Shown here one piece after another: positions 1-16,330 of a DNA stretch of 64,000 nt. The DNA comes from Halovenus carboxidivorans (lineage in GTDB: Archaea > Halobacteriota > Halobacteria > Halobacteriales > Haloarculaceae). Position 1 is the stretch's first letter. Each line of letters opens with the position of its first letter. The stretch spans positions 457,345 through 521,344 of the forward strand of contig NZ_WUUT01000001.1 of assembly GCF_009831575.1 (NCBI RefSeq), in the 5' to 3' direction. The notes under the pieces are model-generated. The model was given only the letters and a program-made list of their open reading frames with translations, searched no databases and had not been told where the DNA came from. A program made the position numbers and the translations under genes.

Positions 1-1
1 C

Positions 2-2209
2 ATCGACACGTTCGACCCGCCGGATGCACGGCCTGACGACCCACCGATTCGAGACATCTTCAGCGAGCAATTCCTTACCGATGCGGCCCCGTACCTCAGA
101 GACGACCCCGGCATTCGCCTGCATCTGGGCCGTGGGCCCCTCGGCGAGGGGCCGGCCGCCGACGTTGTCGAGGCCGACCAGCCTGATCCTGATGGCTGGT
201 ATCGCATCCGCAAGCGCAGTGGCGGTCAGTTCCCCTTGGAGTACCTCTGGGCGGCCGTCCCGAAACGACCTGACGACGACCAGCCGCGACTCCACCCCGT
301 TGTTGTTGAACAGTGGGCCGTTGAAGACGAGCATCGGGACCTGTACCGGCAAGAAATCAACCGCTTCTACGGCCGGACCGGCGAAGGCAACGAACGCCTG
401 CAGCGCCGAGACGTGACGACGCTTGTCGAACGGCTCAGCTACAGTCTGCAGCGCCTCGTCGAGGCGATTCCCTACAAGAACGCCTACCAGCCGAAAGAAC
501 CACTCGACGTGACAGAACTGGCGGCATTCGAGCCACCTGTGTCAGGCCTGCCCGCAGCGGCGCGAGATTATCTCCGGATGGAGTTCGGTGCCAGCCGTGA
601 CGCAACACTCGCCCAGTACCGGTCATCATTACGCGAGCGCGCTCGCAGCGGGCGGTCGATGCCGGTTCGCTGTACCGACTACACACTCGCAGACGACGGG
701 ACGCTCACCATCACCGCCGACCTCGCCTACGAGGACCTGTTCGACGACCCAGCCACGGCCACACAGGTCGCACAGCAGGCTCGCCTCCGGAGTGCTGACG
801 GGACGAGCGGTGGCAGTTGGCGAGTACTGACCCGCCTCACCCAGCGCACCACTGATCCGGACTGTGAGCGGTCTCCTGTCCAGCCGGACCTCGAACCGAC
901 CGTTGACGACCCAGAAGACACGAAACACTCGCCGCCAGTGTTCGTCGATCAGCTCGATGTTGATGCGGGAGAGATTGTCCTGACAATACTGCCACACCGG
1001 TTTCGCCGCCACGGCAGCCGCTTTCGCGTCGACCACTGTGGCTGGCAGTGCCCGGAGGGAAGTAATCTCACCGACCCCGACCAGCCACCGAGCGAGCGGG
1101 ATGGCTACGTCGCCGAGCGTCCGCCGGTCTGGATCGACACCGACGAGGTGTATATGCTCGATCCGATGGTCGATGATTTCGGCGCCCCCAAGGCAGACCG
1201 CGCACTGCGGCCCGAGACAATCCAGCACAACCCGCTCTGGCAGCAACTCCAGGTGCTCCAAGAGAGCGGTGATCAGCGACAAACAACGCCTGTCGCTGCG
1301 CCAGCCGAAATCGAGCGGTTCTGCAGGCAGATGGCCGCGAGCGAGGCTTGTCTCACGCCCAACGATGCGCAACAGCGGTTCATCGAGGCTGTCGATCGTC
1401 CGCTCGTGCCCTTACAGGGTCCGCCCGGAACGGGCAAGACAAATGGCGCAACCGCACCGGCGCTGCTCGCCAGAGCGTATGCACACGCACAGCAGGACGA
1501 ACCGTTCACTGGCATCGTCATCGCGCCCTCTCACGACGCCGTCGATGTCGTCCTCAGTGGCGTTGTCGATTGCCTGGACAACTGGCGGGAAAATGCCTCA
1601 GGACTGACCGACCTCAGCCTCGTTCGCGTCACGCCAACGCCACCGCCAGCCGAGACAATGCGAGCAGATGCTGACGCCACACAGGTTGCAGTCACGTACG
1701 CGGCCTATCACAGCGACGGCGGTGCGGAGACCCTCAGTGATATGGCCCGTGCGCTGACTGGGGAGAAAGCAGACCCGACACAGCGACTGCTCTTCGCAAC
1801 GCCGGCAACGCTGTATCGCGTGCTGGGAATCGTCGCCGAGACGTGTTCGGCAATCGACGGCACGTCTGCCCCGGCCGCAATGCGCTATGCACCCGGGCTG
1901 GCCGATGTCGTCTGCATCGACGAAGCCAGTATGCTTGACCTGCCACGGCTGTTTCTCGCCACGAGCGCGCTCACACCCGCTGGCCAGACCCTCCTCGTTG
2001 GTGACCACCGCCAGCTGGCGACGGTGTCCGAGGTGGACTGGACAGACACACGCCGAAAACCCGTCACGGAGACCGGCGCATATCGCTCAGCACTCGAATA
2101 CGTCCGAGACCTCGCCACGAGACTGGACAACCAGTCCACACCGGACGATGGGTCAGAACAACACCGACGCTCACAGTTTGGCGATGACGCTGCAGGTGAG
2201 AGCCGATGA
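2..2209 (+). CDS. SF1 (Dna2/NAM7-like) helicase, N-terminal and RecA1 part, 5' end outside window
   Basis: The frame is open from the first bases, so the gene starts upstream of the window; 735 residues are visible. The P-loop GPPGTGKT lies near visible residue 472, the Walker B/motif II stretch CIDEAS near 636 and motif III LLVGDHRQL near 663. These are the RecA1 motifs of an SF1 helicase of the Dna2/NAM7 type. The preceding ~470 residues are acidic and unlike a known domain I can name. The frame ends right after motif III in a Ser/Asp/Gln-rich linker, and motifs IV to VI are in the next gene, which starts inside this stop codon (ATGA). In the homologues I recall the helicase is one chain, so this is either a natural two-subunit split or a frameshift in the linker. 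Likely role: DNA translocase or helicase in a mobile or defence setting (inference). Confidence 0.8.
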   Translation: MDTFDPPDARPDDPPIRDIFSEQFLTDAAPYLRDDPGIRLHLGRGPLGEGPAADVVEADQPDPDGWYRIRKRSGGQFPLEYLWAAVPKRPDDDQPRLHPVVVEQWAVEDEHRDLYRQEINRFYGRTGEGNERLQRRDVTTLVERLSYSLQRLVEAIPYKNAYQPKEPLDVTELAAFEPPVSGLPAAARDYLRMEFGASRDATLAQYRSSLRERARSGRSMPVRCTDYTLADDGTLTITADLAYEDLFDDPATATQVAQQARLRSADGTSGGSWRVLTRLTQRTTDPDCERSPVQPDLEPTVDDPEDTKHSPPVFVDQLDVDAGEIVLTILPHRFRRHGSRFRVDHCGWQCPEGSNLTDPDQPPSERDGYVAERPPVWIDTDEVYMLDPMVDDFGAPKADRALRPETIQHNPLWQQLQVLQESGDQRQTTPVAAPAEIERFCRQMAASEACLTPNDAQQRFIEAVDRPLVPLQGPPGTGKTNGATAPALLARAYAHAQQDEPFTGIVIAPSHDAVDVVLSGVVDCLDNWRENASGLTDLSLVRVTPTPPPAETMRADADATQVAVTYAAYHSDGGAETLSDMARALTGEKADPTQRLLFATPATLYRVLGIVAETCSAIDGTSAPAAMRYAPGLADVVCIDEASMLDLPRLFLATSALTPAGQTLLVGDHRQLATVSEVDWTDTRRKPVTETGAYRSALEYVRDLATRLDNQSTPDDGSEQHRRSQFGDDAAGESR

Positions 2210-3087
2210 CTGACGACACCTCGGCCGACTCGGCCGAATCAATTCGCTTGGAGCAACTCACCGAGTCCTACCGGTTCGACGAGGAACTTGCCCGCCTGCT
2301 CACGCAGTTTCAGTATCAGGCAGACGGCATCCAGTTGACGGCTGCCGAGTCACGGCCGCTGCCAGCACAGCGCGTTGCCCCGATCACAGTCGGGCAAGCA
2401 ACCGTGTTTGGCGCTGATTCGTCGCTGGTCTTTCTCTGTTATGACGACCGTGAACACACAATGGTCAATCCAATCGAAACCACGCTAGTCGACGCACTTG
2501 CCCGGGCCGTCGCCGAGCGGACGGCCCCTCGCCCAGATGGTGGTAGCGGCAGGCCCCTCGGCGAGGGACCGCCATCAGCGCCCACCGCGACAGAGTCACA
2601 GCCAGCCAACCAGCCAGAGACACATTCCGAGTCACTGAGCATGGGGGTCGTGACGCCACACAACGCCCAGCGCGGGGCCCTTGCGTCTGAGTTGCCCGCG
2701 GGCGTCACAGCGAACACGGTCGAGAAGTACCAAGGCGGTGAACGCGACGTGATTGCTGTCTCCGCAACAGTCTCAGACCCACAGTTTGCCCGGACAGAAG
2801 AGCAGTTCATCCTCAATCCACGGCGGCTACTCGTTGCCATCTCCCGGTCACGCCTGCTAACCGTCGTCGTCTGTAGTACCGCGCTGTTCGAGGTCGCGCC
2901 CCAGGACAGCGAGCGCCTCGATGACGGGCCGATCTGGGCGCGGCTGTTCACGCAGGCTGTCGGCAAAGATCTGGAGCCAGCCTGGACAGGCACACTCGGT
3001 GCGTTTGTCGCTGACAAGACCGGCGACCACGCAGACGTGCCAGTGCAGGTGTATCCAAGCACAGTAGGTAGAGGTGATCGGTCATGA
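2206..3087 (+). CDS. SF1 helicase C-terminal half (RecA2, motifs IV to VI)
   Basis: This 293-aa protein begins with an ATG overlapping the stop of the RecA1 gene (ATGA), so translation is probably coupled. It carries the missing half of the helicase: QLTESYRF after the linker, motif IV-like VVTPHNAQRG near residue 148, motif V-like VEKYQGGERDVI near 170, and motif VI VAISRSR near 208. After motif VI an ~80-residue tail begins LLTVVVCS and ends at the start of the Cys-rich gene, again by ATGA. This tail is what is repeated three more times downstream. The two halves would have to associate to form a working motor; alternatively the split is a recent frameshift. The function of the tail is unknown. 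Confidence 0.8.
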   Translation: MTDDTSADSAESIRLEQLTESYRFDEELARLLTQFQYQADGIQLTAAESRPLPAQRVAPITVGQATVFGADSSLVFLCYDDREHTMVNPIETTLVDALARAVAERTAPRPDGGSGRPLGEGPPSAPTATESQPANQPETHSESLSMGVVTPHNAQRGALASELPAGVTANTVEKYQGGERDVIAVSATVSDPQFARTEEQFILNPRRLLVAISRSRLLTVVVCSTALFEVAPQDSERLDDGPIWARLFTQAVGKDLEPAWTGTLGAFVADKTGDHADVPVQVYPSTVGRGDRS

Positions 3088-3491
3088 AGCCAGTGGAAAC
3101 GGACGGTGGCCTCCAAGTTGACGGTGATGAAAATGCCACTGATGAGCACGCTGTCGTGGCGCCACTGGAACAACTGTTCGCCGGGCTTTGCGTGGGGATG
3201 CCGACGCTAACTGTCCAGTGTTGTGCCTGCGGGACCGAGTTGGGCGAAGGCGAGACAGTTTCCGTGTACGCCTATCGAACCGTCGAAACACCGCGGTGGC
3301 ATCTCGCTCGGTGTCGGTGCACAGACTGTGCGCTTGACGAGGTCGCAACGCCAACGCTTGGCGCGACTGAAGCCCGTGTCGGTGCGCGGTTAGCCACCGT
3401 CTCGGATGTGGGTACCCAACAGTACCGGTTGTGTCTCGCCGAACCAACGATCGCAGCAGTGTCTTCACCGTCGGACGGCACGCCACCGTGA
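2854..3491 (+). repeat. Helicase-tail/Cys-rich-gene module, copy 1 (intact)
   Basis: This is the reference copy of a ~640-bp module found four times in the first 7.4 kb. It starts just after the motif VI codons of the helicase and runs through the end of the Cys-rich gene. Copies 2 to 4 begin at or within a few codons of the same place, while DNA to their left is unrelated, so the boundary is sharp. Both frames are open in this copy. Confidence 0.8.
3084..3491 (+). CDS. Small Cys-rich (probable zinc-binding) haloarchaeal protein, copy 1
   Basis: This 135-aa protein starts on an ATG overlapping the helicase stop (ATGA). Two Cys groups are visible, CCAC near residues 48 to 51 and CRCTDC near 78 to 83, spaced as expected for one zinc site. 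Between them is the signature VYAYRTVETPRWHLARC. I know similar uncharacterised haloarchaeal proteins, usually beside large helicases, but no function. It is the most complete of four copies: copy 2 lacks the last ~23 residues through an amber codon, copy 3 has an early amber and a frameshift, and copy 4 is truncated. Coupling to the helicase suggests a shared role (inference). Confidence 0.7.
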   Translation: MKPVETDGGLQVDGDENATDEHAVVAPLEQLFAGLCVGMPTLTVQCCACGTELGEGETVSVYAYRTVETPRWHLARCRCTDCALDEVATPTLGATEARVGARLATVSDVGTQQYRLCLAEPTIAAVSSPSDGTPP

Positions 3492-3527
3492 GCAGGCTAT
3501 GACGAGTGAGACAGCACAGCAGCACAG

Positions 3528-3534
3528 TTATATT
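3528..3534 (+). promoter_or_regulatory. TATA box for the wHTH/PemK pair
   Basis: TTATATT is centred 26 bases upstream of the ATG at 3557. That spacing predicts transcription starting at the start codon, a leaderless mRNA, which is common in haloarchaea. It implies the cargo pair is transcribed independently of the helicase. Confidence 0.5.
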
Positions 3535-3556
3535 CCAGCACACCAAAACATAACTT

Positions 3557-3967
3557 ATGCCCATGGATATTACCGAATTTGAAGCGCTTGATGCAGACGA
3601 AGACAAAACAACCGCCGAGTGCATCATTGAATTCTTACTTGCAAACCAAGACCAAGCGTTCACGCGCGGTGAGATTGCATCGGCAATTGACCGTGACCCA
3701 AACACTGTCGGCTCAAATCTGAGCCGCCTCAAAGACCGTGGATTGGTTCGTCACAGGCGTCAGCACTGGGCCCTCACAGACGATCTTGAACTGCTTGAGC
3801 GTGAACTCCGTCATTCACAGTATCTCACGACAGTGACTGAGACATTCGGACCTCTCATTACGAGTGCTGAAGAAGCCAGCGCGTGGAGTGATGCACAGCC
3901 CGATCGGCCCCATCCCAGTGAAACAAATGATGACACCACTGATGATGAGCCCATCACACAGAACTAA
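3557..3967 (+). CDS. Winged-helix (MarR-like) protein, probable antitoxin/regulator
   Basis: The protein has 136 aa. Residues ~15 to 75 form a winged helix-turn-helix: a helix containing CIIEFLLANQ, the recognition region RDPNTVGSNLSRLKDRGLV, and a wing ending in HWALT. The C-terminus is an acidic, Ser/Asp/Thr-rich tail likely to be disordered. The gene is directly followed by a PemK-like gene whose ATG overlaps this stop (TAATG), the usual layout of antitoxin then toxin. The TATA box 26 bases upstream supports the first ATG (3557) as start; an ATG two codons later is possible. A MarR-like DNA-binding domain instead of a MazE/AbrB-type antitoxin is unusual for PemK partners. The antitoxin role is inferred from position only. 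Confidence 0.72.
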   Translation: MPMDITEFEALDADEDKTTAECIIEFLLANQDQAFTRGEIASAIDRDPNTVGSNLSRLKDRGLVRHRRQHWALTDDLELLERELRHSQYLTTVTETFGPLITSAEEASAWSDAQPDRPHPSETNDDTTDDEPITQN

Positions 3968-4353
3968 TGCTTGAACGCAACGGCCGTGCATATGAGGTCG
4001 GCGATGTTGTGTGGACTGTCGATCCGTTCAAACTCGGACACGACAGATCCCGTTTGTTTGCGATCATTTGTACACGGACTCACCCATTCGAGGGAGAGCA
4101 ATTCATCGGGGTGACAGTCACAACAACAGACCATCTCGTTGCACATCCCTTGGAGGACCATCACTGGGACATCGGCGGAACACCAGAACAGTCGTACATC
4201 CTTCCACTGTCAATTCACACGCCACGGGCCGATAATATTCAAGCCCCGACAGAGTACGATGCGATTACGGACCCGTGGCAAGGCCGACTCACTGACAAAT
4301 TTGTCAAAAGCGTCATTGATGAACTGATTTGGACAATTCGTAAGTACGAGTGA
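3967..4353 (+). CDS. PemK/MazF-like toxin
   Basis: This 128-aa protein resembles the PemK/MazF endoribonuclease toxin fold: it opens with GDVVWTVDPFK, then a strand with RLFAIIC, then GEQFIGVTVTTTD, and ends with a helix containing VIDELIWTIRKYE. In MazF-type toxins the early GDVV loop and the Ser/Thr of the central strand bind RNA, and haloarchaeal members keep this pattern in a divergent form. The length fits the family (~110 to 130 aa). It is coupled to the winged-helix gene by a TAATG overlap. It lies between module copies 1 and 2, so it is cargo of the array. The toxin call rests on remembered family resemblance, not a search. Confidence 0.7.
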   Translation: MLERNGRAYEVGDVVWTVDPFKLGHDRSRLFAIICTRTHPFEGEQFIGVTVTTTDHLVAHPLEDHHWDIGGTPEQSYILPLSIHTPRADNIQAPTEYDAITDPWQGRLTDKFVKSVIDELIWTIRKYE

Positions 4354-4400
4354 CTTGGTTACCAAGTTCCACTTCGTCCCGAGCTGTCAAATTACAATTT

Positions 4401-4641
4401 CCTGCTGACTGTTGTTGTCTGTAGTACCGCGCTGTTCGAGGTGGCACCGCAAGACAGCGAGCGACTCGATGACGGTCCAATCTGGGCGCGGCTGTTCACG
4501 CAGGCTGTCGGGAAAGATCCCGAGCCAGTGTGGACAGGGTCACTCGGCGCGTTTGTCGCTGACGAGATCGGCGACCACGCGGACGTGCCAGTGCAGGTGT
4601 ATCCGAGCGACATCGACGCTGACAGAGGTGATCGGTCATGA
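4401..4641 (+). pseudogene. Orphan helicase tail, module copy 2
   Basis: This is a second copy of the last ~80 codons of the RecA2 gene. It reads LLTVVVCSTALFE at its left end without any preceding helicase motif and has no obvious start codon of its own. The frame stays open to a TGA that overlaps the start of the second Cys-rich gene, exactly as in copy 1. Protein identity to copy 1 is very high, with mostly silent changes, which suggests the tail was under selection until recently or was copied recently. Confidence 0.75.
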
Positions 4642-4976
4642 AGCCAGTGGAAACAGACGGCGGTCTGCAGGTCGATGCTGGGGAAAACACACCGAGCGAG
4701 CACGCGGTCGTTGCGCCACTCAAACAACTTTTTACTGGGCTTCGTGTTGGCTTACCCTCACTCACCGTTCGATGTTGTGGGTGCGGAACTGAGTTGGGCG
4801 AAGGCGATACCGTCTCTATGTACGCCTATCGAACCGTCGAAACGCCGCGGTGGCATCTCGCTCGGTGTCGGTGCCCCGAGTGCGCGCTGGAGGCGGTGGA
4901 GACACCGACGCTTGGCGCGACGGAAGCCCGTGTCAGTGCGCGGTTATCCACCGCCTCAGATGTAGAGACACAATAG
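4638..4976 (+). CDS. Small Cys-rich protein, copy 2 (C-terminally shortened)
   Basis: This 112-aa paralogue of the gene at 3084 keeps both Cys groups (CCGC and CRCPEC) and the VYAYRTVETPRWHLARC-like core with V to M at one site. It ends at a TAG where copy 1 has CAG; the same TAG is present in copy 3, so the shortening predates the split of copies 2 and 3. The start overlaps the stop of the orphan helicase tail. Without an upstream helicase gene it would need its own promoter, which I do not see, so it may be silent. Confidence 0.55.
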   Translation: MKPVETDGGLQVDAGENTPSEHAVVAPLKQLFTGLRVGLPSLTVRCCGCGTELGEGDTVSMYAYRTVETPRWHLARCRCPECALEAVETPTLGATEARVSARLSTASDVETQ

Positions 4977-5047
4977 CACCGGTTGTGCCTCGTTGAGCCA
5001 ACAGTCCTCGCGGTGTCTTCACCATCTGATGGGTACCCTCCCGGAGA

Positions 5048-5056
5048 CTAAATACG
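5048..5056 (+). promoter_or_regulatory. TATA box for the MntA-like gene
   Basis: The AT-rich CTAAATACG sits about 26 bases before the ATG at 5078. It argues for that start, with a leaderless transcript, over the ATG at 5057, which lies too close to the box. Confidence 0.45.
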
Positions 5057-5077
5057 ATGCCCACCATAGTGATTCGT

Positions 5078-5518
5078 ATGAGCACGCAGTCGGATCACTC
5101 CGATATCAATATAGACATTGATGCGATTATTGCGACACTTGAGGAGTATCCGGTTCGATACGCGGTTCTGTATGGATCACACGCAGATGGCGTTGCGACG
5201 AGTGAGAGTGATGTTGATATTGCCGTTGCGTTCCCAGAGGCGTTTTCGGAGTCAGAGCGACTTGACTGTCGCATCGAACTTGTTGTCGATCTGATGGAGA
5301 CACTTGGAACAAATGACGTTGACCTCGCGGATCTCGATGCAATTCAGCCTGAGGTAGGCCTGCAAGCGATTGAGACAGGATACTCTCTTCTTGGGGAGGA
5401 AGCGACACGACAGGAATATCAAAAACAATTCAAGCGTGAAGTTTCGACGCCCGACTCACACGAAGAACGGATGCGCGACTTCGATTCACTCCTTCGCCGG
5501 CTTGAAGACACCGTATGA
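5078..5518 (+). CDS. mntA: MntA-type minimal nucleotidyltransferase (antitoxin)
   Basis: This 146-aa protein has the minimal nucleotidyltransferase signature: LYGSHADG followed by SDVDIAV, that is GSx10DxD, around residues 32 to 48. In type VII toxin-antitoxin systems MntA adds AMP units to the HepT toxin and inactivates it; both active-site aspartates are present. An in-frame ATG at 5057 would add seven residues, but the TATA box position favours 5078. The next gene, a HepT homologue, starts inside this stop codon (ATGA), the usual operon layout. It lies between module copies 2 and 3. With HepT interrupted, this antitoxin may now be an orphan. Confidence 0.82.
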   Translation: MSTQSDHSDINIDIDAIIATLEEYPVRYAVLYGSHADGVATSESDVDIAVAFPEAFSESERLDCRIELVVDLMETLGTNDVDLADLDAIQPEVGLQAIETGYSLLGEEATRQEYQKQFKREVSTPDSHEERMRDFDSLLRRLEDTV

Positions 5519-5964
5519 CAGTGCCATCTGATATCGAGGCACGGATCCTCGACAAAGCGGAATACGTTGAGGAGGCACTCACAGTTCTTGCCGAAAAACA
5601 ATCCATAGATCGAGAGGTCTATCAAAACAGTCGAGAACAGCAGGCAATCGTTTAGCGGGAATTCCAAACAGCAATTGAAGCCTGCATTGATATTGCCGGG
5701 CTGGTGCTCCGTGCATTGGATGCGACAATGCCAGCGACGTACGCAGAGCGGTTTTCGGTACTTGAACAACAGGACGTTCTCTCCTCGGACACGAGTGACC
5801 GGATGCGCAAAGCTGCTGGATTTCGAAACATCCTCGTCCATCGGTATGGTGACACCATCGAGAATGAGACAGTATATGAGCACCTCCAGACCGAACTGGA
5901 GTGGCTTATTCGGTATCTCCGCGAGATTCGAGATCTGTTGGATGAGTCTGCAGAGCCCTGCTGA
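5515..5964 (+). pseudogene. hepT: HepT-type HEPN toxin interrupted by an in-frame amber codon
   Basis: The frame from the ATGA overlap with mntA encodes a normal-length HepT (149 codons) except for a TAG at 5653 to 5655, codon 47. It falls in a stretch reading QQAIV*REF, where the homologues I recall have Glu (GAG to TAG, one change). The rest is intact, including the HEPN catalytic motif RNILVHRY (Rx4HxY) near codon 105. Loss of the toxin leaves the antitoxin harmless, a common path of decay for such pairs. Restart at the ATG at 5728 (codon 72) or amber readthrough could still make a C-terminal product; nothing in the sequence shows either. Confidence 0.8.
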
Positions 5965-5991
5965 CAGAGAATCTTCCGGGCTCCAATCTGT

Positions 5992-6238
5992 GTTCACGGC
6001 TGTTGACTGTCGTCGTCTGCAGTACGGCACTGTTTGAGCTCGCTCCCGAAGACAGTGACCGACTCGACGGCGGCCCGATCTGGGCACGGCTGTTCACCCA
6101 AGCCATCGGGCGCGAGCCTGACTCGGCGTGGGCGGGGCCCCTCGGCGAGTTCGTTGGTGATAGGCTGCCGACCGTGCGGATGTGCCGGTACAGGTGTATC
6201 CGAGCGACATCAATATTGACAGGGGTGGTCGGTGATGG
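5992..6238 (+). pseudogene. Orphan helicase tail, module copy 3 (frameshifted)
   Basis: The third copy of the helicase tail reads RLLTVVVCSTALFELAPED and stays in frame for ~60 codons. Then a small deletion around 6160 to 6180 shifts the frame; the end of the tail (VPVQVYPSD) is readable only in another frame. Confidence 0.7.
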
Positions 6239-6640
6239 AGTCAGTTGAGACAGATGGTGGTCTCTAGATCAACGGCGATGAGACTTCCACTGGTGAGTAC
6301 GCCGTTGTCGCGGCACTCGAACAGCTGTTCACCGGGCTTCGTGTGGGGTTGCCGACACTGACTGTCCAGTGTTGTGCCTGCAGGACTGAGTTGGGCGAAG
6401 GCGACACAGTCTCCGTGTACGCCTACCGGACCGTCGAAACACCACGCTGGCACCTCGCTCGCTGCGGTGCCCGGACTGTGCGCTCAATGAGATTAAAACG
6501 CCGACGCTTGGTACAACTGAGGCACATGTTACTGCACGGCTGGCTGTCATCTCGGATATGAAGACACAATAGCATCGACTGTGTCTCGCTGAGCCAACGA
6601 TCACAGCGGTGTCTTCGCCGCAGGAGAGTCGGCCGCCATG
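6235..6640 (+). pseudogene. Cys-rich gene, module copy 3 (amber and frameshift)
   Basis: The ATG at 6235 is followed by ten matching codons and then TAG at 6265 where copy 1 has CAG. Downstream the frame again matches, including the CCAC group, up to about 6460. There one base is missing and the second Cys group is lost from the frame. The TAG shared with copy 2 near the end is also present. The gene is clearly inactive. Confidence 0.75.
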
Positions 6641-6696
6641 AGGCCGAATTTGTCTCAGTACAAACCTTTGTAACAGTCCACGGCCTACGATTATGT

Positions 6697-6870
6697 ATGA
6701 GTGATACGGACGACAAAATTACCGAACTGGGACAGCATGCCCTCCGTACTGCACGGGTGGAGGGACTCCGCCGGCAGATGGACGAATTTATTCAGTTACA
6801 CGACTCCGAGCAAGATCTCAAAGACCTCCGTGCTGGCGTCGATTCGATGAGTGAACTTGTCAACGACTGA
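6697..6870 (+). CDS. Small charged protein, 57 aa, first of a gene pair
   Basis: The frame starts with ATG at 6697; a weak TATA-like CTTTGTAAC lies about 26 bases upstream. The product is highly charged and helical, with LRRQMDEFIQLHDSEQDLKD-like periodicity suggesting a coiled coil. It is followed four bases later by the broken gene at 6875. Size, order and position between module copies 3 and 4 resemble the other two toxin-antitoxin cargos, so an antitoxin-like role is possible, but I do not recognise the family. Confidence 0.5.
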   Translation: MSDTDDKITELGQHALRTARVEGLRRQMDEFIQLHDSEQDLKDLRAGVDSMSELVND

Positions 6871-6874
6871 CGAT

Positions 6875-7083
6875 ATGCAGTCTCACGAAGATGCTTTTGA
6901 CTTCGCGGCACAGGCTGGGGTGCTCTCTCAGTTAACGAAGAACGAACTGGTCGAAATCTGGCAGAGTCACCGTAATCTGACGTACTATCAGTAGGAGCGT
7001 CCAACCGCCGAGGAAGCCGCAGCGATATTGGAGTATGCAGAGTAGAGTGTATGCACGAACACATTCCAACGTTTGCCGGATAG
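6875..7083 (+). pseudogene. Second gene of the small pair, broken by amber codons and a frameshift
   Basis: The frame from the ATG at 6875 gives 39 residues starting MQSHEDAFDFAAQAG, then TAG at 6992. It continues as ERPTAEEAAAILEYAE to a second TAG at 7043. The last residues, MHEHIPTFAG, follow in a shifted frame up to a stop at 7081. Read through, this is a ~68-residue protein with a regular helical pattern. It overlaps no other gene and lies just left of module copy 4. Family unknown. Confidence 0.55.
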
Positions 7084-7127
7084 GCCCATGACTGTATCTG
7101 CTGACGGAGCATCTGCTGGGTTCCAAT

Positions 7128-7419
7128 TCGCGGTCAGCTATACAATTATCATCTGTAGTGTAGTACTGTTTGAGGTCGCTCCCGAAGTCAGTGACTGGCC
7201 TGACGATGGGCCCGTCTGGGCGCGCTGTCCACGCAGGCTGTCGGGCGTGAGTCGGACCCCTCAGCGAATTCATTGTGATGAGACCACCGAGCGCACAGAC
7301 GTGCCAGTGCAGGTGTACCCAAGCGACACCGATACTAATGGCGGTGATCAGTGACGGAGCAAGTCGAAACGGACGGTGGTTTCCAGATCATCGGTGATGA
7401 AAATGTCACTGGAGAGTAG
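7128..7419 (+). pseudogene. Helicase-tail/Cys-rich-gene module, copy 4 (remnant)
   Basis: This is the most decayed copy. Helicase-tail codons can be followed as LFEVAPE, a degraded WAR segment and VPVQVYPSDTD, with frame changes. The start of the Cys-rich gene is recognisable (GTG at 7351, then QVETDGGFQ) but stops at a TAG 22 codons later, where homology ends. From 7420 to 7543 I see no gene. Copy 4 may be the original 3' end of the helicase gene if the array grew by insertion (inference). Confidence 0.65.
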
Positions 7420-7543
7420 GTTCAATCACAGAAAGGCCGTCGTCTGCCCGCTGCCTGTGACGATCAACACCAACAAGGGTTCTACGGAAGTGTGGTAGAG
7501 ATATCGTTCGGTGGTATGGGGTTATTATTAGAGAGTTACATTA

Positions 7544-10500
7544 TTACTCGATGTGCATGTTCCGGATGGCTGCTTCGAGATTATCTATCTCGTCTTGCAG
7601 CGTCGAAATCGTCTGTAAATCTGTTATCCCAGGCTCAGTAATATTCGTCTTTGAGACCGGAGTATCCGCTGGAATTGTTGTTCCGCCGTAATTGATTTCC
7701 CCGCTTGCGCCGAGTTCTGCCAGTGACTTAGTTAAACCAGCTGCGGTTCGTTCGTCGGACTGCGTCCCGCCTCTCCCTACCGGAATAACCCAATGTGCGC
7801 CATCAGGATCAATCGCACACATTTTCTTATAGGTAGCGATGAGTGAGTCCTTTCTATCATTATTTAGGCGCTCCGCTTCCCACGCATCTACTATGTCTTC
7901 CTCACCGTCAAGCACAGCAACATCGATATTTTTCTGTTTGGTTTCCCCATCTATTGAAAGTTCAATCGGATAGTATGTTTCGACACGACGGTCCTCACGG
8001 TCTTTGTACTTGAGGCGCTCCCGCAGCTCAATTAGGCTGACCATCAGCTGATGCTGAAGTGTCTCATTTAGCTCACCAATATTCCGACCGTATTCATAGC
8101 CTTTATTAAATGATTCATTAATCTCGTTCCGTCCAGCCTTTTTTATAGTGTAGAGAATACGTGGATGTGTATCCTCCGTTATATATCCTTCTTCCTTCAG
8201 CATTGTAATATCCTCATTATCGAGATCAAATGCATCTCGAATCTTTGTGCCAGAGTCAAGCATCGGCGAGTACTCGAAATACGGATCCACCTCCCCAGTT
8301 TGGACAAGATATAATATCTTCAGGAAGAGGAGATGGTCTTCATCTAATGACGAGGCAGCAATCTCATCTAAACTGAGTTTAAGATGTGGTCGGCGAATCC
8401 GCCTAATTTGTTCTCGATCCACCTGAGCCAGCGAACTACAGCATTCAACTGCTCGTTTCAAGCCCTGATTCGTACACGCCGTCTGAGTGGTGTTAGCTTG
8501 ATTTTCTCCCTTACACTGGACACACTCGTAACATTGCAAATCGGCGTCATAGTCGACAGTCGGTGGCAATCCGGTTCGCCGAGGGATATGTCTCGTCGAC
8601 TGTCGTTCATTGGCTGCAGTTTCCTGTAATGCATCGCCGATCGGCTGCGTTGTGCTCTTGTCTAAGCTCGGCAATTCAATTGTATGTACTTCTCTAAGTA
8701 TCTCAGTAAGAGTAGCTAAATAGCTACCTGGCAGTGTTATCTCATCAACTGCCGGCGTGGCAGCAGTTGCTGATGTTTTTAGCATCGGTAGGATAGTTGG
8801 CTCATCAATTGTATCGGTTGAATTGAGTCGAACAACATTCGTTGCAGGTTGTGATGATGTGAGCTCACTTGCGTGTACGCCTTCTTGTTCAGGGAGGGTA
8901 GTCGTCTTGAGGATTTGGACAGACTGTCCAGTGGCGTCAGCGGTCGTCGCATCGACAGCATCCACGATCTGATCGGTCGTCTGGTCGTTGGCTTTTGCAC
9001 GATCGGCATAGGTAATGAGTTCGAGACCAAGGCCAGTGGATTGGGTCGCCTGCAGAGCGCGGATAAGCAGGTCTTCATTTGTGTTTTCTTCGGCAACGAT
9101 GGTCGGCAGGCCAACAATCACATGTCCATGAAGAAGTTGGTTAGACGGTGTTTCCGCATCATCAAGTGACTGTGCCGCGTTACTGAGCTCATAGAGTAGT
9201 TTTGATGCGTCCGCGACTGTATCTTCAACGCGGTCAAAGGTGAATAAATATACCGCTCTTTCACCAGTGAATAATTCACGGCCCCATTCTCGAAGTACTT
9301 GTCCATCTGATGCTGATAGCCACTTTCTAAGCACGCTAACTTTGATGTGTTCTAATGATGACGCTGCGTCGGACTCTGAGGACGCTCCTAACTGATAATA
9401 ACACCACGCACAGAATTTGGCAACCAGTTTATCGCGGCAGAAAATAACAGTCGGCTTGCCGCTATCGAATGCAGATTTTAATGCAGAGAGAAGAGCCCTG
9501 TAGACGCCATCAGTTGGTGATTTTGCCACGCGCAGCACCGAAGTTGCGGGGTTAGGAAGCCCCAGTGATGTGACTGTATCGAAACTGTGAGACGCGCCAA
9601 CGCTTGGCTCGTACCCCAATTGATGCCCATTAGTAAGCAACTGTTGGATCAGCGATGACGAGTACTGTTCAAGTCCGCTTGCAGTTCCGCCGATCCCCTT
9701 CCTCAACGCTAGATCTCGCGGCACTGGAAGAAATCCCACGGCGTACCGCGGAGACACGGTAAACGGTTCATTTCGAGGATGGGCTAACTGTTTGATGAGC
9801 GCTTCGACAGACAGCGGCTGTTCGTTGGACGATCCAGACGGACGGGAGCAATCAATGCCAGACCACGGGAATTCCGCTAATTTGTATGAGTGTGCACAGT
9901 GCTGATTGATCTGTTTTTCAATCGAGTGTGCAAGCGCATCTATAGACTGGTCCCGTTGCTGCGACTGGTTTGAGGAACTACTTAAAAGACGAATTTCCAT
10001 ATCGTAAGGTCCATCACCTCTAATTTCTGATTGGGCAGAAAGCAGGATCTGAAGAGCCCACGGACTTGGTAGGTCATCCATTGCAGTAATGAGAGCCGCA
10101 AGCTCTTCCCCGACCACAACTTCACGAGTTACACTATCACTGACTTGTCTGTTACCCTCTCCGTCTGAGTCGTCAGCCGGAACCAATGATCTGATCGTTG
10201 CTTTGTTGACACGGAGGCCGCTTGGAAGAACCTCAGACAGCTCATGAGCGGCATAGCCCTCCATCGCCGTATAATCAAACAGTTTCCGCACCTCTCTTTC
10301 GGGTGCTTGTTCAACAGTTGGATTCTTCGGTAACTGGTATGATATATAATACTCAAGACCAGCGTTAGCCGACTGCGTCACAAGCAACTCAAGATCAACT
10401 GGCTTGATTTTCTCTCTGACGAGTTTGAGATCGTGCGGCTTTCTAATTACTTTTAACAACGACTTTATTCCTTGAACCGGGTCCTCTATATCACCCAATA

Positions 10501-10567
10501 ACTTGACTGGCACGGTGCGAAACAATCCTCGGTCAAAAAGACGTTTAGGATCTTGTCCAGGCATCAT
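7544..10567 (-). CDS. Large VirB4/HerA-like protein without a recognisable P-loop (downstream paralogue)
   Basis: The protein has 1,007 aa if started at the ATG at 10567, inside the end of the upstream gene; GGTGAGG just upstream can serve as ribosome site. N-terminal features (LEYYISYQ; PSPWALQILL) match the N-domain of haloarchaeal conjugation ATPases of the VirB4/HerA type. Where those have the P-loop, this has KPTVIFCRDKLVAK, with no GxxGxGK. The Walker B/DE region reads HVIVGLPTIVAEEN before a typical helix and GLGLELITYAD. The C-terminal third has a Cys-pair zinc site (CYECVQC, then ECC), a winged-helix region, a stretch DVAVLDGEEDIVDAWEAER that looks PD-(D/E)xK-like, and TEPGITDLQT, the usual family ending. 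It is a likely pseudo-ATPase partner of an ATPase elsewhere (inference). Confidence 0.6.
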   Translation of the reverse strand: MMPGQDPKRLFDRGLFRTVPVKLLGDIEDPVQGIKSLLKVIRKPHDLKLVREKIKPVDLELLVTQSANAGLEYYISYQLPKNPTVEQAPEREVRKLFDYTAMEGYAAHELSEVLPSGLRVNKATIRSLVPADDSDGEGNRQVSDSVTREVVVGEELAALITAMDDLPSPWALQILLSAQSEIRGDGPYDMEIRLLSSSSNQSQQRDQSIDALAHSIEKQINQHCAHSYKLAEFPWSGIDCSRPSGSSNEQPLSVEALIKQLAHPRNEPFTVSPRYAVGFLPVPRDLALRKGIGGTASGLEQYSSSLIQQLLTNGHQLGYEPSVGASHSFDTVTSLGLPNPATSVLRVAKSPTDGVYRALLSALKSAFDSGKPTVIFCRDKLVAKFCAWCYYQLGASSESDAASSLEHIKVSVLRKWLSASDGQVLREWGRELFTGERAVYLFTFDRVEDTVADASKLLYELSNAAQSLDDAETPSNQLLHGHVIVGLPTIVAEENTNEDLLIRALQATQSTGLGLELITYADRAKANDQTTDQIVDAVDATTADATGQSVQILKTTTLPEQEGVHASELTSSQPATNVVRLNSTDTIDEPTILPMLKTSATAATPAVDEITLPGSYLATLTEILREVHTIELPSLDKSTTQPIGDALQETAANERQSTRHIPRRTGLPPTVDYDADLQCYECVQCKGENQANTTQTACTNQGLKRAVECCSSLAQVDREQIRRIRRPHLKLSLDEIAASSLDEDHLLFLKILYLVQTGEVDPYFEYSPMLDSGTKIRDAFDLDNEDITMLKEEGYITEDTHPRILYTIKKAGRNEINESFNKGYEYGRNIGELNETLQHQLMVSLIELRERLKYKDREDRRVETYYPIELSIDGETKQKNIDVAVLDGEEDIVDAWEAERLNNDRKDSLIATYKKMCAIDPDGAHWVIPVGRGGTQSDERTAAGLTKSLAELGASGEINYGGTTIPADTPVSKTNITEPGITDLQTISTLQDEIDNLEAAIRNMHIE

Positions 10568-13500
10568 CCTCACCTTGAAGCTGCAGCGCTCCGCGGTCCT
10601 CATCAACAGTCCATCTTGGATTAGTTGCGTCCCGCATCTGTTTCATTGTTTTAACATCCGTAATTCCGGGTTCGTCTAACTGATAGTCCTGGATCCGGAC
10701 ATTGTCGCTGTACCCTGCTTTACAATCAATCACTGAATCATCATCTGCTGCTGACAGCGTTGAGAGTAACGCTGTTGCATCAGCCTGACGCCAGACACAC
10801 CACAGTGCTGTGTCCGAGACTTCCGAAACCAGTGTCTGATACTTCACGGCCGTTTCAATCCCGTCGTAACCGGTCAGATAATCGAACGACAACGCATCAA
10901 CAGAGTTATTATCTTCCGGCACCGTTCCAAGATCGACAACCGGCGGCCACACAACAGCACCAGTTGTGATATTGCCGTCAGGGCCGATGACAGCAACATC
11001 CAATGGTGATTGACTTGGCATTGATGATATTGTCGCCGCGACATCGCACATCACATTGGTTTCTACGTCATAGCCAGATTTGGCGTCATACTTTGTTTTG
11101 AGGGACAGCCAGACCGCTCGCTGTAGACATCGTTCAAACAGCGATGGCAGATCCTGAAGCGCACTTTTATCCACCCCGAGTGCGTTCAGTCCCTTCGTCG
11201 TCAGCGAGTACACTTTCTGAGGGGCTCGCATCCGCACAATATAGCCAGCGTCTGCGAGCTCGGTTTCAGTTTGTGAATCAATACCCACATCCTTCCGGAG
11301 TTTCACGCAACTGTCAACAAGTGGGTCGTACTCTAAACTGCAGTCTAACTCACCGCGCTGCGCTAAGTAGATCATTGATAGGAATTCGAGTTCTTTTGCT
11401 GTTAACTCACCCTCAGCGGGGTCTACCTGGGTTGAACCGAGTTCCACGTCTGGCGTACAGCGGAGTACGTCACGGTCGATCTCGGCAAGTGACTGGCAAC
11501 ACGTAACTGCAGACATCAACCCAGTGAGCGAACGTTCATATACCGATGCATCGATACCCGTCGTTGCGCGACACTGCTCGCAAACGTAGCCGGCTTGCCC
11601 GGCATCATACACAACTGCGAGATCATCTGGCCGCCGGATTGCATGTCTGGTCGTTATGCCTGCGGTGGCCGGCTGATCATCGGTCCCGGATGCTTCCCCG
11701 CCTGCTGTCTGGGGCCCGTCATCAGTCTCCGCAGACGCGGTCGGCACAGACAACACTGACTTGAGTTGATCATATCTCTGTGGTGGTACTTTGATGTTAT
11801 ACGTCACGTCCTGCATCGTCTTCGAGCGATACACCGGCCCGACGATTGGTGCGCTGTCGAATCTTAAATTATCTTTAACCCCAATCCACGGTCCGTCAGC
11901 TGAACGGTTCTGCTTTGGAAAAAACGTCTCGATGAAGTAATCTTGCGGCTGTTCACCTGTGTACTGTTGGCATAACTGCGCGACGGCTCCGTCAGTACTC
12001 ACAAGAGCGAGGTCAGAGCGATTTACAAGCTTGGCAGCTGTATGACAGCTTTGCGTTGCTTCGCTGGAGTCCGATAAGTTCCGGGAAGATCCGTCACCGG
12101 CACGGTCAGCAGGCGCAGTCTGCACAGTCAGATAGGTTGTACCTGATTTGGCCGCCGCTATCGCGGCAGCAGCGACACCGCTCATGGGTTGATCGCCCGA
12201 TAACACTGGTAGTTCAGCAAAAATCGCATCTACTGTCGCCCCCTGTATCCCGTCAGTCTTCTCGCGTCGTACTGCCTGCAGGTCCTCATAGAGTGCAGGA
12301 TCAGTTGGCCACCCCGACTCACCTGGAATATCGACAAGGTACACGTCAGATTCATTGGCCAACCATGATTTCAATACCGCACGTCGCTGCGCTTGTTCAC
12401 AGCCACACAGCCGCTCCAACTCAGCACTGCCAAGATACGTAATATCAAATTCTGCCGCTGAGTTAATCAACGAACAGTAAATCCTGCCAAAGTACTCAAG
12501 CAGTTCCGTGTTGCTGGCTACAACGAATGTTGGTGAATTAAGCGATAGATGCGATTGCAGCGACTCCTGTGCTGTACGCAAGGCTTCGCGGCGCGAGGCA
12601 TTGATTTTCAGCACGATCCCTGGGTCAGATAGACCAACCGGGGCCATCGTCCCGTTGATGGCTGAGAGTTCCATCCGCCCAACCGATAGTGTCGGCGATA
12701 GCAGGTCCCGGATCTCTTCAGGTGCAGCCCTCGTCAGCGATGAGTTCACGTTACCAACGCCGTGTTCCAGCGATGAGACTATCTGTGGCGGGAACAACAC
12801 CCCCCTGCTATAGCTATCCGGTGCACCAAACGCTGTATCAGGATTTATTTGTTTGTTGACTAGACGGTTGAGCATCTCAGACCGATTTGTACGGGTCCCT
12901 TCCGAGTCAACCGGGAGGTTTTGGTCCGTCCGGAGCCGTGTGTCTTTAGGTGGCTGTCCGACCTCCGGTTTGACTGTCCCCGCATCCAGCGATATGACTT
13001 TCGTTTGGATCGCACAGCGAATATTGAGGCGTAAACAGGACTCATCTTGGTGCATTGAGTGAATATTAGGGTCGCTTGAATACGGCTGTGACAGCAGTTG
13101 AAGCGCCCATGGCTGGTCTGTCGCATCCAGCCAGCGGATGAGTTTGGCCGTGTTTTCCCCCACGCTCAGTGGTGAATCGGTAAACGCTGGAACGACCGTT
13201 TTAAATGCCGCGGGTGGCCAGCAACAAAATACATCAACCCCTGCTGCGGAGTCCGTCCCGAATGGGAGTGCCGGCCGATCGACTTTCGTGAGCTGGTACT
13301 GGTCATCAAACCAATTAATGAGTTGTCTTCGTTTGTCGTCTGGGAGTTGGCGCAGCGACGAGTCCAGTGTCACCGTGTACGTCAGATCACCTCTTCCGTC
13401 GCTGGTGACTAACAACTCTGTTTGCGATCTCAACGACCCCGGCCTCCACGGCTGAGCAAACAAATCAATAACTGACCGACAATCGCCGTCTTGTCCTGTT

Positions 13501-13583
13501 TGTGACTCTCCTCTAAGCGCGAGATTACCCCTAGCACGTGCCGGCTCTACCTCGAAAACAATATCACCGTCTCGATTCTTCAC
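10545..13583 (-). CDS. Large VirB4/HerA-like protein without a recognisable P-loop (upstream paralogue)
   Basis: The protein has 1,012 aa from a GTG at 13583, which overlaps the stop of the preceding small gene (GTGA); a GGGTGAG ribosome site lies 8 bases upstream. It is collinear with the downstream gene: DQPWALQLLSQPY in the N-domain, a P-loop position reading PTFVVASNTELLEYF, VYLVDIPGESGW, AIFAELPVLSG near the Walker B/Glu position, a zinc site CEQCRATTG...CCQS, the winged helix LEFLSMIYLAQRGEL and the family ending DEPGITDVKTM. The nuclease-like segment is weaker here (LDVAVIGPDG, without the later EAE). Codon use is AT-richer than the core chromosome. The two paralogues probably act together, as they are coupled by a ~23-base overlap. 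Confidence 0.6.
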   Translation of the reverse strand: MKNRDGDIVFEVEPARARGNLALRGESQTGQDGDCRSVIDLFAQPWRPGSLRSQTELLVTSDGRGDLTYTVTLDSSLRQLPDDKRRQLINWFDDQYQLTKVDRPALPFGTDSAAGVDVFCCWPPAAFKTVVPAFTDSPLSVGENTAKLIRWLDATDQPWALQLLSQPYSSDPNIHSMHQDESCLRLNIRCAIQTKVISLDAGTVKPEVGQPPKDTRLRTDQNLPVDSEGTRTNRSEMLNRLVNKQINPDTAFGAPDSYSRGVLFPPQIVSSLEHGVGNVNSSLTRAAPEEIRDLLSPTLSVGRMELSAINGTMAPVGLSDPGIVLKINASRREALRTAQESLQSHLSLNSPTFVVASNTELLEYFGRIYCSLINSAAEFDITYLGSAELERLCGCEQAQRRAVLKSWLANESDVYLVDIPGESGWPTDPALYEDLQAVRREKTDGIQGATVDAIFAELPVLSGDQPMSGVAAAAIAAAKSGTTYLTVQTAPADRAGDGSSRNLSDSSEATQSCHTAAKLVNRSDLALVSTDGAVAQLCQQYTGEQPQDYFIETFFPKQNRSADGPWIGVKDNLRFDSAPIVGPVYRSKTMQDVTYNIKVPPQRYDQLKSVLSVPTASAETDDGPQTAGGEASGTDDQPATAGITTRHAIRRPDDLAVVYDAGQAGYVCEQCRATTGIDASVYERSLTGLMSAVTCCQSLAEIDRDVLRCTPDVELGSTQVDPAEGELTAKELEFLSMIYLAQRGELDCSLEYDPLVDSCVKLRKDVGIDSQTETELADAGYIVRMRAPQKVYSLTTKGLNALGVDKSALQDLPSLFERCLQRAVWLSLKTKYDAKSGYDVETNVMCDVAATISSMPSQSPLDVAVIGPDGNITTGAVVWPPVVDLGTVPEDNNSVDALSFDYLTGYDGIETAVKYQTLVSEVSDTALWCVWRQADATALLSTLSAADDDSVIDCKAGYSDNVRIQDYQLDEPGITDVKTMKQMRDATNPRWTVDEDRGALQLQGEDDAWTRS

Positions 13584-13711
13584 CAAACTGGCTCACCCCC
13601 GTGTACTGAGAGACCACTTTGCCACAGCCTGACCGCTACGTCTTGTTGGGATTCACGCTGTTCCGTTCGGCGGCTGGGTCGCAGCAGATTAATCGGTCTC
13701 CGACCAATCAT
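13580..13711 (-). CDS. Small basic protein (43 aa) coupled to the VirB4/HerA-like pair
   Basis: The ATG at 13711 has a strong ribosome site (GAGGTG, 3 bases before the start) and the frame ends in a TGA overlapping the GTG of the next gene. The product is Arg- and Gln-rich (MIGRRPINLLRPSRRTEQRE) with a Trp near the end. No family is recognised. It may be a leader peptide serving translation of the large gene, or a small subunit. Confidence 0.55.
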   Translation of the reverse strand: MIGRRPINLLRPSRRTEQRESQQDVAVRLWQSGLSVHGGEPVW

Positions 13712-13730
13712 GGGCACCTCTTTCCGGTTT

Positions 13731-13740
13731 GTATATAAAG
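13731..13740 (-). promoter_or_regulatory. TATA box of the small-gene/VirB4-like operon
   Basis: On the minus strand CTTTATATAC is a near-ideal archaeal TATA box. Its centre is ~25 bases upstream of the ATG at 13711. This would place the transcript start at or near the start codon, in tension with the good ribosome site just upstream, so the exact start of the mRNA is unsure. Confidence 0.55.
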
Positions 13741-13798
13741 GTCTCCGGATTTTTTTCAGACCCTGCTTCTGACACGAAGAGCCGCAATGGCGGCTCAT

Positions 13799-16330
13799 TC
13801 GCCATGATTGTGGCGAAACCGACGGTCATCCTTACTTCGCTTAGGCCAAACCAGTAAATATCACTAGGCTATGATAAAAAAGCGAACAGTTCGACAACCG
13901 CTGATGCCCCTATGCCTTTGAATCACAGAGGATACGACAGCCAATATGATAAAAACCAATATAAGTGGTGGCGAACAAAGCTCCGTATCCAAAGACTCGG
14001 ATTCACCCGCGTCTAAGAACACTTGCATTCTAGACTGACACTGAGCCGGTGGCCAGCAAGCAACCAGCACCGCCAAGTACAACTTCTTCGATAAATCCAA
14101 AAGAATGTTAAGCTATTCAGTGCCTCCTCACCCAACAGTGACAGAACACGGTTCCGGTGGTTATAGAGCCGCTGAGTATAGATTTCTCACATAACAACCA
14201 TTCCACAATGAGTTTCCACACCCAAATTTCACAACAAAACCCAGCCAAAAACCGGTCACACTCGTAACCCGCCACATAGCGGGGAGAAACCGCCCCAAAA
14301 CCAGCGGAAAACAAATTCCACAACCCCGGTCAATCTCCGGAATACTATGTATTCATCAGCTAGTGTCTTTGATGCTGTGCGTAAGAGAATGAATCTGTGC
14401 CAAGCACAGCTGAGTGAAACGACTTAGTCACAGTAGCCGGACTCCCGAGTCCCTGTCGTCACGAGACAATCAGACGCACAATGAAATCCACACATCACAC
14501 GGTGAGAGGTTTGCACCTTAGGATTCGTTGAAACGCGGAACGCTCCAGTAGGACATCGATTTCTGCTATCTAATCAACAACGAGTGCAGTGAACAACAAA
14601 CTCAATGGTAAACAGATTGAAATCGGATATTGATAATGACTCCAGTTTTGAGTTGACTCCAACTTTAATGAAACATAAGGCGTACGCGATTAGTTGGTGC
14701 TCACCTGCTGGTACGGTCCATAAATACCGGTCCGTCGCAGTGCCGCCACTGATAGGAGCTATTGATAGTGCTGTCTGGAGTGATGTGGCAGGCCAGAAAC
14801 TCCTGAGAGCAAGAGTAGTCTGAAGCAGTAACAAACACGCGACATCTTACTTGTAGTGAGGGTAGGCACCCGCCCGACAGATATCGTGGATTCAAGCACG
14901 CCACGAAATGGATTATATAACCGATAGCGACGACAACCAAGCTACTGGGTTCACGCGAACGACCGATGATACAGAGTGTTTGGTATGAGTTTCCTCAGGT
15001 GATAAAGTCTAGAGTACCTGACTCGTCATGAACAATAATCCAGGCAACCCCACAGAGCCACACGAACGCACAAGTAGTGCAACACTACGCCCACGATAGC
15101 TTTTTGTCACAGTTCAAGGAAGAGGTACTGAACAACTCGCTCTGCGATGAGGGTGAATGTTATGATTGTTAAAAGTGATAAACGTGGCACCGACTCCGCG
15201 ACGCACCGGATTGTCTGTAGAATTATATCAACCACGTCAACGAACCCTGTGACTCGGGCTGCTGTAATGATGGGTATGCCACGACACCCACTCAGTAGTT
15301 AGGTGCTCGCTGCCACCCTATGGACTTCCGGTATAATAACCATGCCCCAGTCGAGACCAATCAGGACAGTACAAGTGAACGTATACACACAACGATACTA
15401 GCTTGATACCGACTGGTGTAGCGTCCGTCTCAACCACTGCTTCGCGCATGAGTACAATAACAGACGAATCACTAATCAATCCGAAACAGTGGCGCCGGCT
15501 GGAGGCATTTGTTTAAAACGGACGTTAGCTGGAAATCCACGCACACAAAACGTACGCTCAGTGCACCAGCATATTGTCCCTGAGCACGCCTCATTGGGTC
15601 CCTTCACGGAACAGGCCAGAACCGTGACTACCTGAGACATTAAGAGGAAAAACCCCCCTGTGATAGCCGTCTGAATTGTACAGACTCCTTCCACAGAGTC
15701 ATCACTATTTAATTCAACCAGGACACCAACTTTGTCGGCTGTGTCTGCACGATGGCACTTTCCAATTATTACCTATGCTCATCTGCGGATCGAGTCAGCC
15801 TATCCCACTCAATAAAAACCTACAACACACCAGTACTCGGAGGTGACTAGTTTAGTTATTTCGGGATTTTCACTGGTTGTGGGATTACCAAATTAGTCGT
15901 ATTTGCCGAAAAGAAGCATTGTTCGTGGGAATTCTTCGCTGTGACCGCAGTTGTGTTCTTGTGTGGGGATTATTCCAGTGTGACTTTTGAGTGTGGCTAA
16001 GGAGTCTTACACTATGTGGGCTAACATAATTCACAAAGAACCCGAGCGTCATATGCCAGATGACCCGAACCTACACAATCTACGAATATTGGATGGTTAT
16101 ACATCGTTAACATCTTTCCCCACGCGTTCACTTCAACGCCGATGTAACCGTAATTTCCTCATCCAGAATGGATGCATCTGTGTAAGGTTGGCTGTCCTCG
16201 ACAACTAAGATGTCCTCAAATACCGCAGTTGCCCTTGTGTGACTTTCAGCGTCAATATCGTGTTGCACATAGAACACGCGACTGCCGACGAATACACTTA
16301 GCTGTATATGGTATCATCGACATCCTCTTT
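13799..16330. other. 2.5 kb AT-richer stretch without a convincing gene
   Basis: Stop codons are frequent in all frames and the short open frames (60 to 90 codons) show no haloarchaeal amino-acid bias, motifs or promoters. Small hairpins are present, for example TCGCCA/TGGCGA at 13799 and CTGTGC/GCACAG at 14395. Between 15987 and 16150 one plus-strand stretch reads protein-like (NLRILDGYTSLTSFPTRSLQ) but has no recognisable partner sequence. It is best read as decayed accessory DNA. Confidence 0.6.

Follow-up and report, generated by a model that had tools for sequence, protein, structure and literature searches.

In the C-terminal displacement of Rhs genes, new 3′ ends shunt old ones downstream, so that a locus comes to hold a string of fragments, each beginning in conserved sequence, and a circular intermediate has been proposed (Jackson et al. 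2009, PMC2935791). Within one Rhs locus the core fragments are identical, but the tips are toxins unrelated to each other (PMC2935791). In the effector-immunity arrays of the Vibrio cholerae type VI secretion system (T6SS), genes insert one after another, each time anchored in conserved upstream sequence, and older genes move downstream; homology-facilitated illegitimate recombination (HFIR) has been proposed for them (Kirchberger et al. 2017, PMC5361080). When restriction-modification genes insert and duplicate a long stretch of the target, an addictive pair comes to lie between two target copies, as summarized in PMC3874152 from Nobusato et al. (2000). Here we describe a locus in a 64,000-nt stretch (the window; G000:C1:457345-521344) of the 3.25-Mb haloarchaeal genome G000, in which the 3′ end of a split nuclease-helicase gene and the adjacent zinc-ribbon gene occur four times, with genes resembling toxin-antitoxin (TA) pairs between the copies.

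As in Rhs loci, old 3′ ends here appear to have been displaced downstream by new ones. Unlike the Rhs tips, the tails are homologous and 13% to 30% diverged, the toxins belong to separate TA operons, and the array gene is an archaeal nuclease-helicase rather than an Rhs/YD-repeat core; by this comparison the locus would be a displacement array in outcome, yet not a member of the Rhs family. Retained old immunity genes in the T6SS arrays may protect, whereas here the old ends and their cargos decay, and the host is a haloarchaeon. An addictive gene pair between target copies is shared with the restriction-modification insertions, but the copies are long and seem to have diverged anciently under selection, unlike fresh duplicates. 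The first-pass annotation of the window knew of no described system of this kind. That was too broad for the displacement process, which is described for Rhs and T6SS immunity arrays, although the helicase gene and the TA cargo do differ, and a narrow literature search found no description of a displacement array on a helicase with TA pairs. Known displacement arrays concern secreted bacterial polymorphic toxins, whose tail is itself the payload; in the present locus an ordinary conserved helicase end forms the tail, the payload is an addiction module, and the host is an archaeon.

Module copies and their toxin-antitoxin cargos

The repeated module is about 640 bp long and consists of the 3′-terminal ~235 bp of the small helicase gene and the zinc-ribbon (Cys) gene directly 3′ of it; all four copies are on the forward strand, between 2.85 and 7.42 kb (Table 1). 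A repeat search made without prior input found repeats of the tail at 2853, 4401, 5999, and 7149 and of the tail end plus the Cys gene at 3070, 4624, 6221, and 7276 (60% to 89% identical), and together with alignment it recovered the four copies with rising decay that the first-pass annotation had noticed. In copy 2 the frames of tail and Cys gene are almost open, and the stop of the one overlaps the start of the other. At the nucleotide level, tail and Cys gene, respectively, are 87% and 77% identical to those of copy 1 in copy 2, 72% and 78% in copy 3, and 70% and 61% in copy 4; divergence from copy 1 follows the proposed left-to-right order in the tail, whereas that of the Cys gene does not.

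Table 1 Features of the helicase-tail array (window coordinates)
Feature	Position	Strand	Remarks
Nuclease-helicase large gene, 3′ part	1..2209	+	starts upstream of window; Walker A and motif II
Nuclease-helicase small gene	2206..3087	+	293 codons; motifs V-VI and C-terminal tail
Zinc-ribbon (Cys) gene	3084..3491	+	two CxxC pairs; four Cys invariant in 22 relatives
Module copy 1	2850..3492	+	intact tail and Cys gene
Cargo 1 antitoxin-like winged helix	3557..3967	+	HTH_20, 26.0 bits, below cut-off of 27
Cargo 1 toxin, MazF/PemK fold (predicted)	3967..4353	+	128 residues, open frame
Module copy 2	4398..5046	+	tail frame open; Cys gene cut by stop near 4974
Cargo 2 MntA-type adenylyltransferase antitoxin	5057..5518	+	open
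Cargo 2 HepT toxin	5515..5964	+	Rx4HxY present; in-frame TAG at 5653-5655
30-nt stretch before copy 3	5958..5987	+	shared with stretch before copy 4
Module copy 3	5988..6642	+	frameshifts and stops
Cargo 3 VapB-like antitoxin	6697..6870	+	57 residues; congener homologues 65% to 75% identical
Cargo 3 second small open reading frame	6875..7045	+	in-frame TAG at 6992-6994
30-nt stretch before copy 4	7098..7127	+	pair of 5958-5987
Module copy 4	7128..7419	+	remnant: tail and start of Cys gene

Three different units, all TA-derived, lie between the copies. Cargo 1 is predicted to be a helix-turn-helix (HTH) and MazF-fold pair: the toxin has no Pfam match to PemK, but its AlphaFold2 model (predicted local distance difference test score 87.8) has eight Foldseek matches in the PDB at E ≤ 0.001, all of them MazF or mRNA interferase. 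Of 146 genomes in the family, 96 have relatives of this toxin, and all 20 loci examined have an HTH relative. Cargo 2 is assigned to the type VII TA family MntA/HepT, both MntA (67.5 bits) and HepT (65.7 bits) scoring above the NCBIfam equivalog cut-offs of 60 bits each. The homologues of the first cargo 3 gene in the congeners G013 and G006 are followed by an open reading frame (ORF) for a PIN-type toxin, recognized by eye from the translation, which is absent after the gene in the window; cargo 3 is therefore probably a VapB-like antitoxin minus its toxin. Its second ORF has weak matches to plasmid genes of Halorussus and Haladaptatus. These results bear out the winged-helix/PemK-like and MntA/HepT assignments of the first-pass annotation, apart from the stop in HepT, and give a probable identity to the first half of what it had called an unknown small pair. 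The cargos belong to or resemble the MazF/PemK, MntA-HepT, TumE, and VapBC families, and only their position is unusual. Their decay also rises rightward, cargo 1 being open, HepT stopped, and VapC gone.

A related arrangement is present in a second genome of the genus (G002, contig 40), where the 5′ part of the helicase gene is gone and only the 3′ part remains. The order there is helicase tail, a zinc-ribbon gene cut after its first 31 codons, a TumE toxin gene, an HVO_A0114-type HTH gene, a second tail that starts only at residue 27, and another zinc-ribbon gene, which is decayed. Both cargo genes score above their Pfam cut-offs (TumE, 37.9 against 23.4 bits; HVO_A0114, 101.8 against 27.6 bits), and the two truncated module copies overlap, together giving the full target. 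The same tail thus adjoins different cargo in another genome, as expected if units had been inserted serially. No array was seen at the helicase loci of archaeon SHRA6, Natronomonas aquatica, Halonotius, and G154; in G154 a TnpB-type insertion interrupts the zinc-ribbon gene and is the sole interruption. A six-sequence helicase profile (A1) found no further tail duplications in 392 genomes of the order and 391 of the class (overlapping sets), nor further tail arrays in the family of G154.

One candidate from G038 (locus L157), a supposed helicase-tail repeat around a TA pair, was rejected, the repeat being a SWIM-type zinc-finger gene and the weak tail match spurious. The 670-bp repeat at this locus (L157:3249-3915 and 6759-7423) is 86% identical between copies, one of them degraded; its SWIM-type assignment is a reading from sequence. 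The copies enclose an archaeal-ATPase-like gene together with an HTH/MazF-like pair, and the locus would be a separate example of a host gene whose long, diverged copies surround TA genes.

Divergence of the copies and probable serial displacement

The differences between copies are concentrated in third codon positions, which account for 84 of 124 when copies 1 and 2 are compared, for 94 of 156 in copies 1 and 3, and for 35 of 57 in the tails of copies 2 and 3. The share expected if one branch had been neutral is about 0.40 to 0.44, and the same script gave 0.58 for functional orthologues. Binomial p values against 0.436 are 5e-8 (copies 1 and 2) and 2e-5 (copies 1 and 3); the test assumes independent sites and a simple neutral model, and the values are guides. 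On the strength of this bias, duplication in place followed by pseudogene drift was rejected. The level of divergence is also high. Copies 1 and 3 are as distant (72% and 78% identical in tail and Cys gene) as copy 3 is from G154, which belongs to another family (73% and 76%), and the two G002 copies are 64% and 63% identical to each other, equal to their distance from other genera; an unlinked chromosomal helicase gene differs by 17% to 25% within the genus. From the codon-position bias and the level of divergence we infer that the ends diverged while functional in different lineages and were joined later, and each insertion probably introduced a foreign 3′ end, in agreement with the earlier suggestion of a fresh end per insertion. 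Lacking the helicase motifs, a displaced tail could not have been selected as a helicase, although the tail of copy 2 may be expressed as a separate product.

We favor, with moderate confidence, the explanation that foreign alleles, linked to TA pairs, have displaced the helicase 3′ end one after another. DNA carrying a related nuclease-helicase 3′ end, a zinc-ribbon gene, and a TA pair would enter from another haloarchaeal lineage and be anchored through homology on the helicase side, while its far (TA) end would be joined at motif VI of the resident helicase or immediately before it. The helicase would then be completed by the new 3′ end, and the old end with its partner gene would be shifted downstream and decay. 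This would have happened at least three times in the window and at least once in G002, and the proposed rightward movement of old ends gains support from the rightward increase in decay and from this second genome. TA addiction plausibly guards a new unit against loss by recombination between copies. The anchoring route could be linear, of the HFIR type, or involve a circular unit as proposed for Rhs, and the stretch exchanged at each insertion could be either the 3′ end alone or a longer portion of the helicase. If this is correct, TA pairs without a recombinase of their own would enter the chromosome by riding on a gene that must stay whole, and the locus would be a datable series of such entries. 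A broader claim, that a haloarchaeal mobile unit of helicase end, zinc-ribbon gene, and TA pair moves between species, replaces the nuclease-helicase 3′ end at a favored point near motif VI, and is fixed by addiction, appears doubtful to us at present.

Several results weigh against serial displacement by foreign ends. Copies 1 and 2 are sisters, with 38 quartet sites joining them against 5 and 11 for the alternatives (summed over segments), and comparison of helicase body and tail in G000 gives no usable incongruence, so that the case for a foreign origin is made by the codon-position bias and the divergence level only. No donor genome, intermediate, or strain pair was found in the genomes searched. 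In addition, plain illegitimate joining does not explain three left edges within about 20 bp. Two chimeric origins were considered and rejected. Copy 1 is not a recombinant of copies 2 and 3, as quartet sites join copies 1 and 2 along most of the module with no convincing breakpoint. In G000, the helicase body groups with SHRA6 and G154, as does the tail, and the shift that had suggested a body/tail chimera (G154 being least similar upstream and most similar in the tail) is explained by a fast-evolving G154 core.

Copy edges and alternative explanations

Placed by alignment in copy 1 coordinates, the left edges of copies 2, 3, and 4 are at ~2849, ~2843, and 2839 or slightly left of it, within motif VI codons. 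The copies had been described as starting at the same codon region, and their edges are indeed near each other, but they do not share one codon (spread of ~20 bp). The 30-nt stretches directly before copies 3 and 4 are identical at 25 of 30 positions (score 40 against 16 ± 2.7 for shuffled sequences; 0/2000), and this stretch is not present upstream of copy 2. A near-constant left edge and a shared 30-nt stretch are not predicted by plain HFIR and favor a unit carrying its own junction (a circle from recombination between modules) or a site-specific step.

Such a step is the core of the first alternative, in which a recombinase acting in trans would use the motif VI sequence as attB and small elements would bring replacement 3′ ends. 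Phage-like elements supply replacement 3′ ends in protein genes such as icd. The clustered edges, the sequence common to copies 3 and 4, and the direct repeats that bound haloarchaeal TA cassettes elsewhere would all fit this explanation; however, the edges in G002 (tail residue 27 and Cys residue 31) are unlike those in the window, which speaks against a single fixed site and does not support the one exact insertion point that had been proposed, and copy 2 is without the 30-nt stretch. The ~55-bp repeat of the cassettes is absent from the window genome. The integrase-like mechanism suggested earlier also found no backing in gene content, as none of eight proteins encoded at 0.2-7.0 kb matched a recombinase in Pfam or NCBIfam, although one could act in trans. 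A dedicated site-specific mechanism is unproven for the array, and we regard this explanation as unlikely.

A second alternative, in which TA pairs insert in place and duplicate a long stretch of the target, follows a proposal made for restriction-modification genes and would account directly for cargos that are each flanked by direct copies of the target and for the truncated G002 copies that overlap into a full one. Duplications of the order of 100 bp have been reported (PMC3874152), shorter than the module here, and neither the strong third-position bias nor distances at the level of species or family would be expected of pseudogene duplicates formed in place, making this explanation improbable. 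Tandem duplication of tail and Cys gene, with copies that stayed functional as separate products long after TA insertion between them, is very unlikely: it fits the nearly open, stop/start-overlapping frames of copy 2 and its seemingly constrained divergence, but the tail alone has no helicase motifs and no obvious start, copy 3 has the same bias although it is frameshifted, as is copy 4, and the other genomes outside the genus that carry the helicase have no such copies.

Host genes and a separate cassette repeat

The nuclease-helicase was identified as AAA_11/AAA_12 in a Pfam scan. Its large gene has ~1,350 codons and carries helicase motifs I-II and, in the part upstream of the window, a PD-(D/E)XK/Cas4-like region. 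It is represented in the window by the frame 236..2209 and overlaps the small gene via ATGA. The first-pass annotation described these as one helicase and was right about the helicase tail, but there are two overlapping genes. The same split occurs in N. aquatica, SHRA6, Halonotius pteroides (two loci), and G154, and is therefore not a frameshift. Wherever relatives of this superfamily 1 (SF1) nuclease-helicase (window:236-3087) keep an intact copy, it is split at a point between motif II and motif V; in more distant haloarchaeal relatives there is one gene of ~1,500 codons. Both helicase genes contain a palindromic GC-rich stretch, GGCCCCTCGGCGAGGGGCC (window:135-159 and 2546-2570); in the small gene it encodes the peptide PLGEG, which is found again in relatives, within their variable linker. 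Plasmids and viruses were rejected as sources of the split helicase, since plasmids hold only distant relatives (<40% identity) and viral contigs none.

The zinc-ribbon family is present in 104 of the 392 genomes of the order, and its protein fold has no PDB match at E ≤ 0.001. Other members (L086, L087, and L092-L094) are near Orc1/Cdc6-type genes, Pfam-confirmed in L086, and the L092 member is also near a protein with weak PADLOC matches to Cmr3; this neighborhood recalls haloarchaeal RAMP (HRAMP) loci. Downstream of the array (window:7544-13586), two adjacent, similar genes of ~1,015 codons on the reverse strand match nothing in Pfam, NCBIfam, or PADLOC. Both are related to a gene near the helicase in N. 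aquatica (L083:608-1579) and to one near a decayed zinc-ribbon gene in G001 (L085). No RNA families were found in window positions 1-14000.

In other genomes, 6 of 20 loci with the cargo 1 TA family lie between direct repeats, compared with 5% of random control-locus intervals. At four of them (L145, L149, L160, and L162), the repeats are one conserved element of ~55 bp, absent from the window genome, with the consensus AATGTACGCCCGGAACACTACCGGGCGAAAATCTACTAGTAGGCTCGGTGGAAGTGAA, an inverted repeat CGCCCGG-N7-CCGGGCG, and a palindrome, CTACTAGTAG; it takes the form CGCCCGGAACACTACCGGGCG...CTACTAGTAG, and the L145 copies are at 5521-5563 and 6333-6375. Allowing up to two mismatches, the element is present in 36 of 142 genomes of the family, and a reversed control pattern gave zero matches. 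Multiple copies mostly form one same-strand cluster with a spacing of 0.2-6.5 kb, such as the six on the reverse strand of L195 (3485-9059). A geranylgeranyl-reductase-family gene is within a few kilobases at five listed loci (L195, L199, L201, L206, and L209), the family being confirmed for L209 and recognized by eye in the others. The bounded cassettes, many of them TA-like, include PemK-like and DUF433/DUF5615 genes and resemble dif-module or integron-like cassette arrays in haloarchaea.

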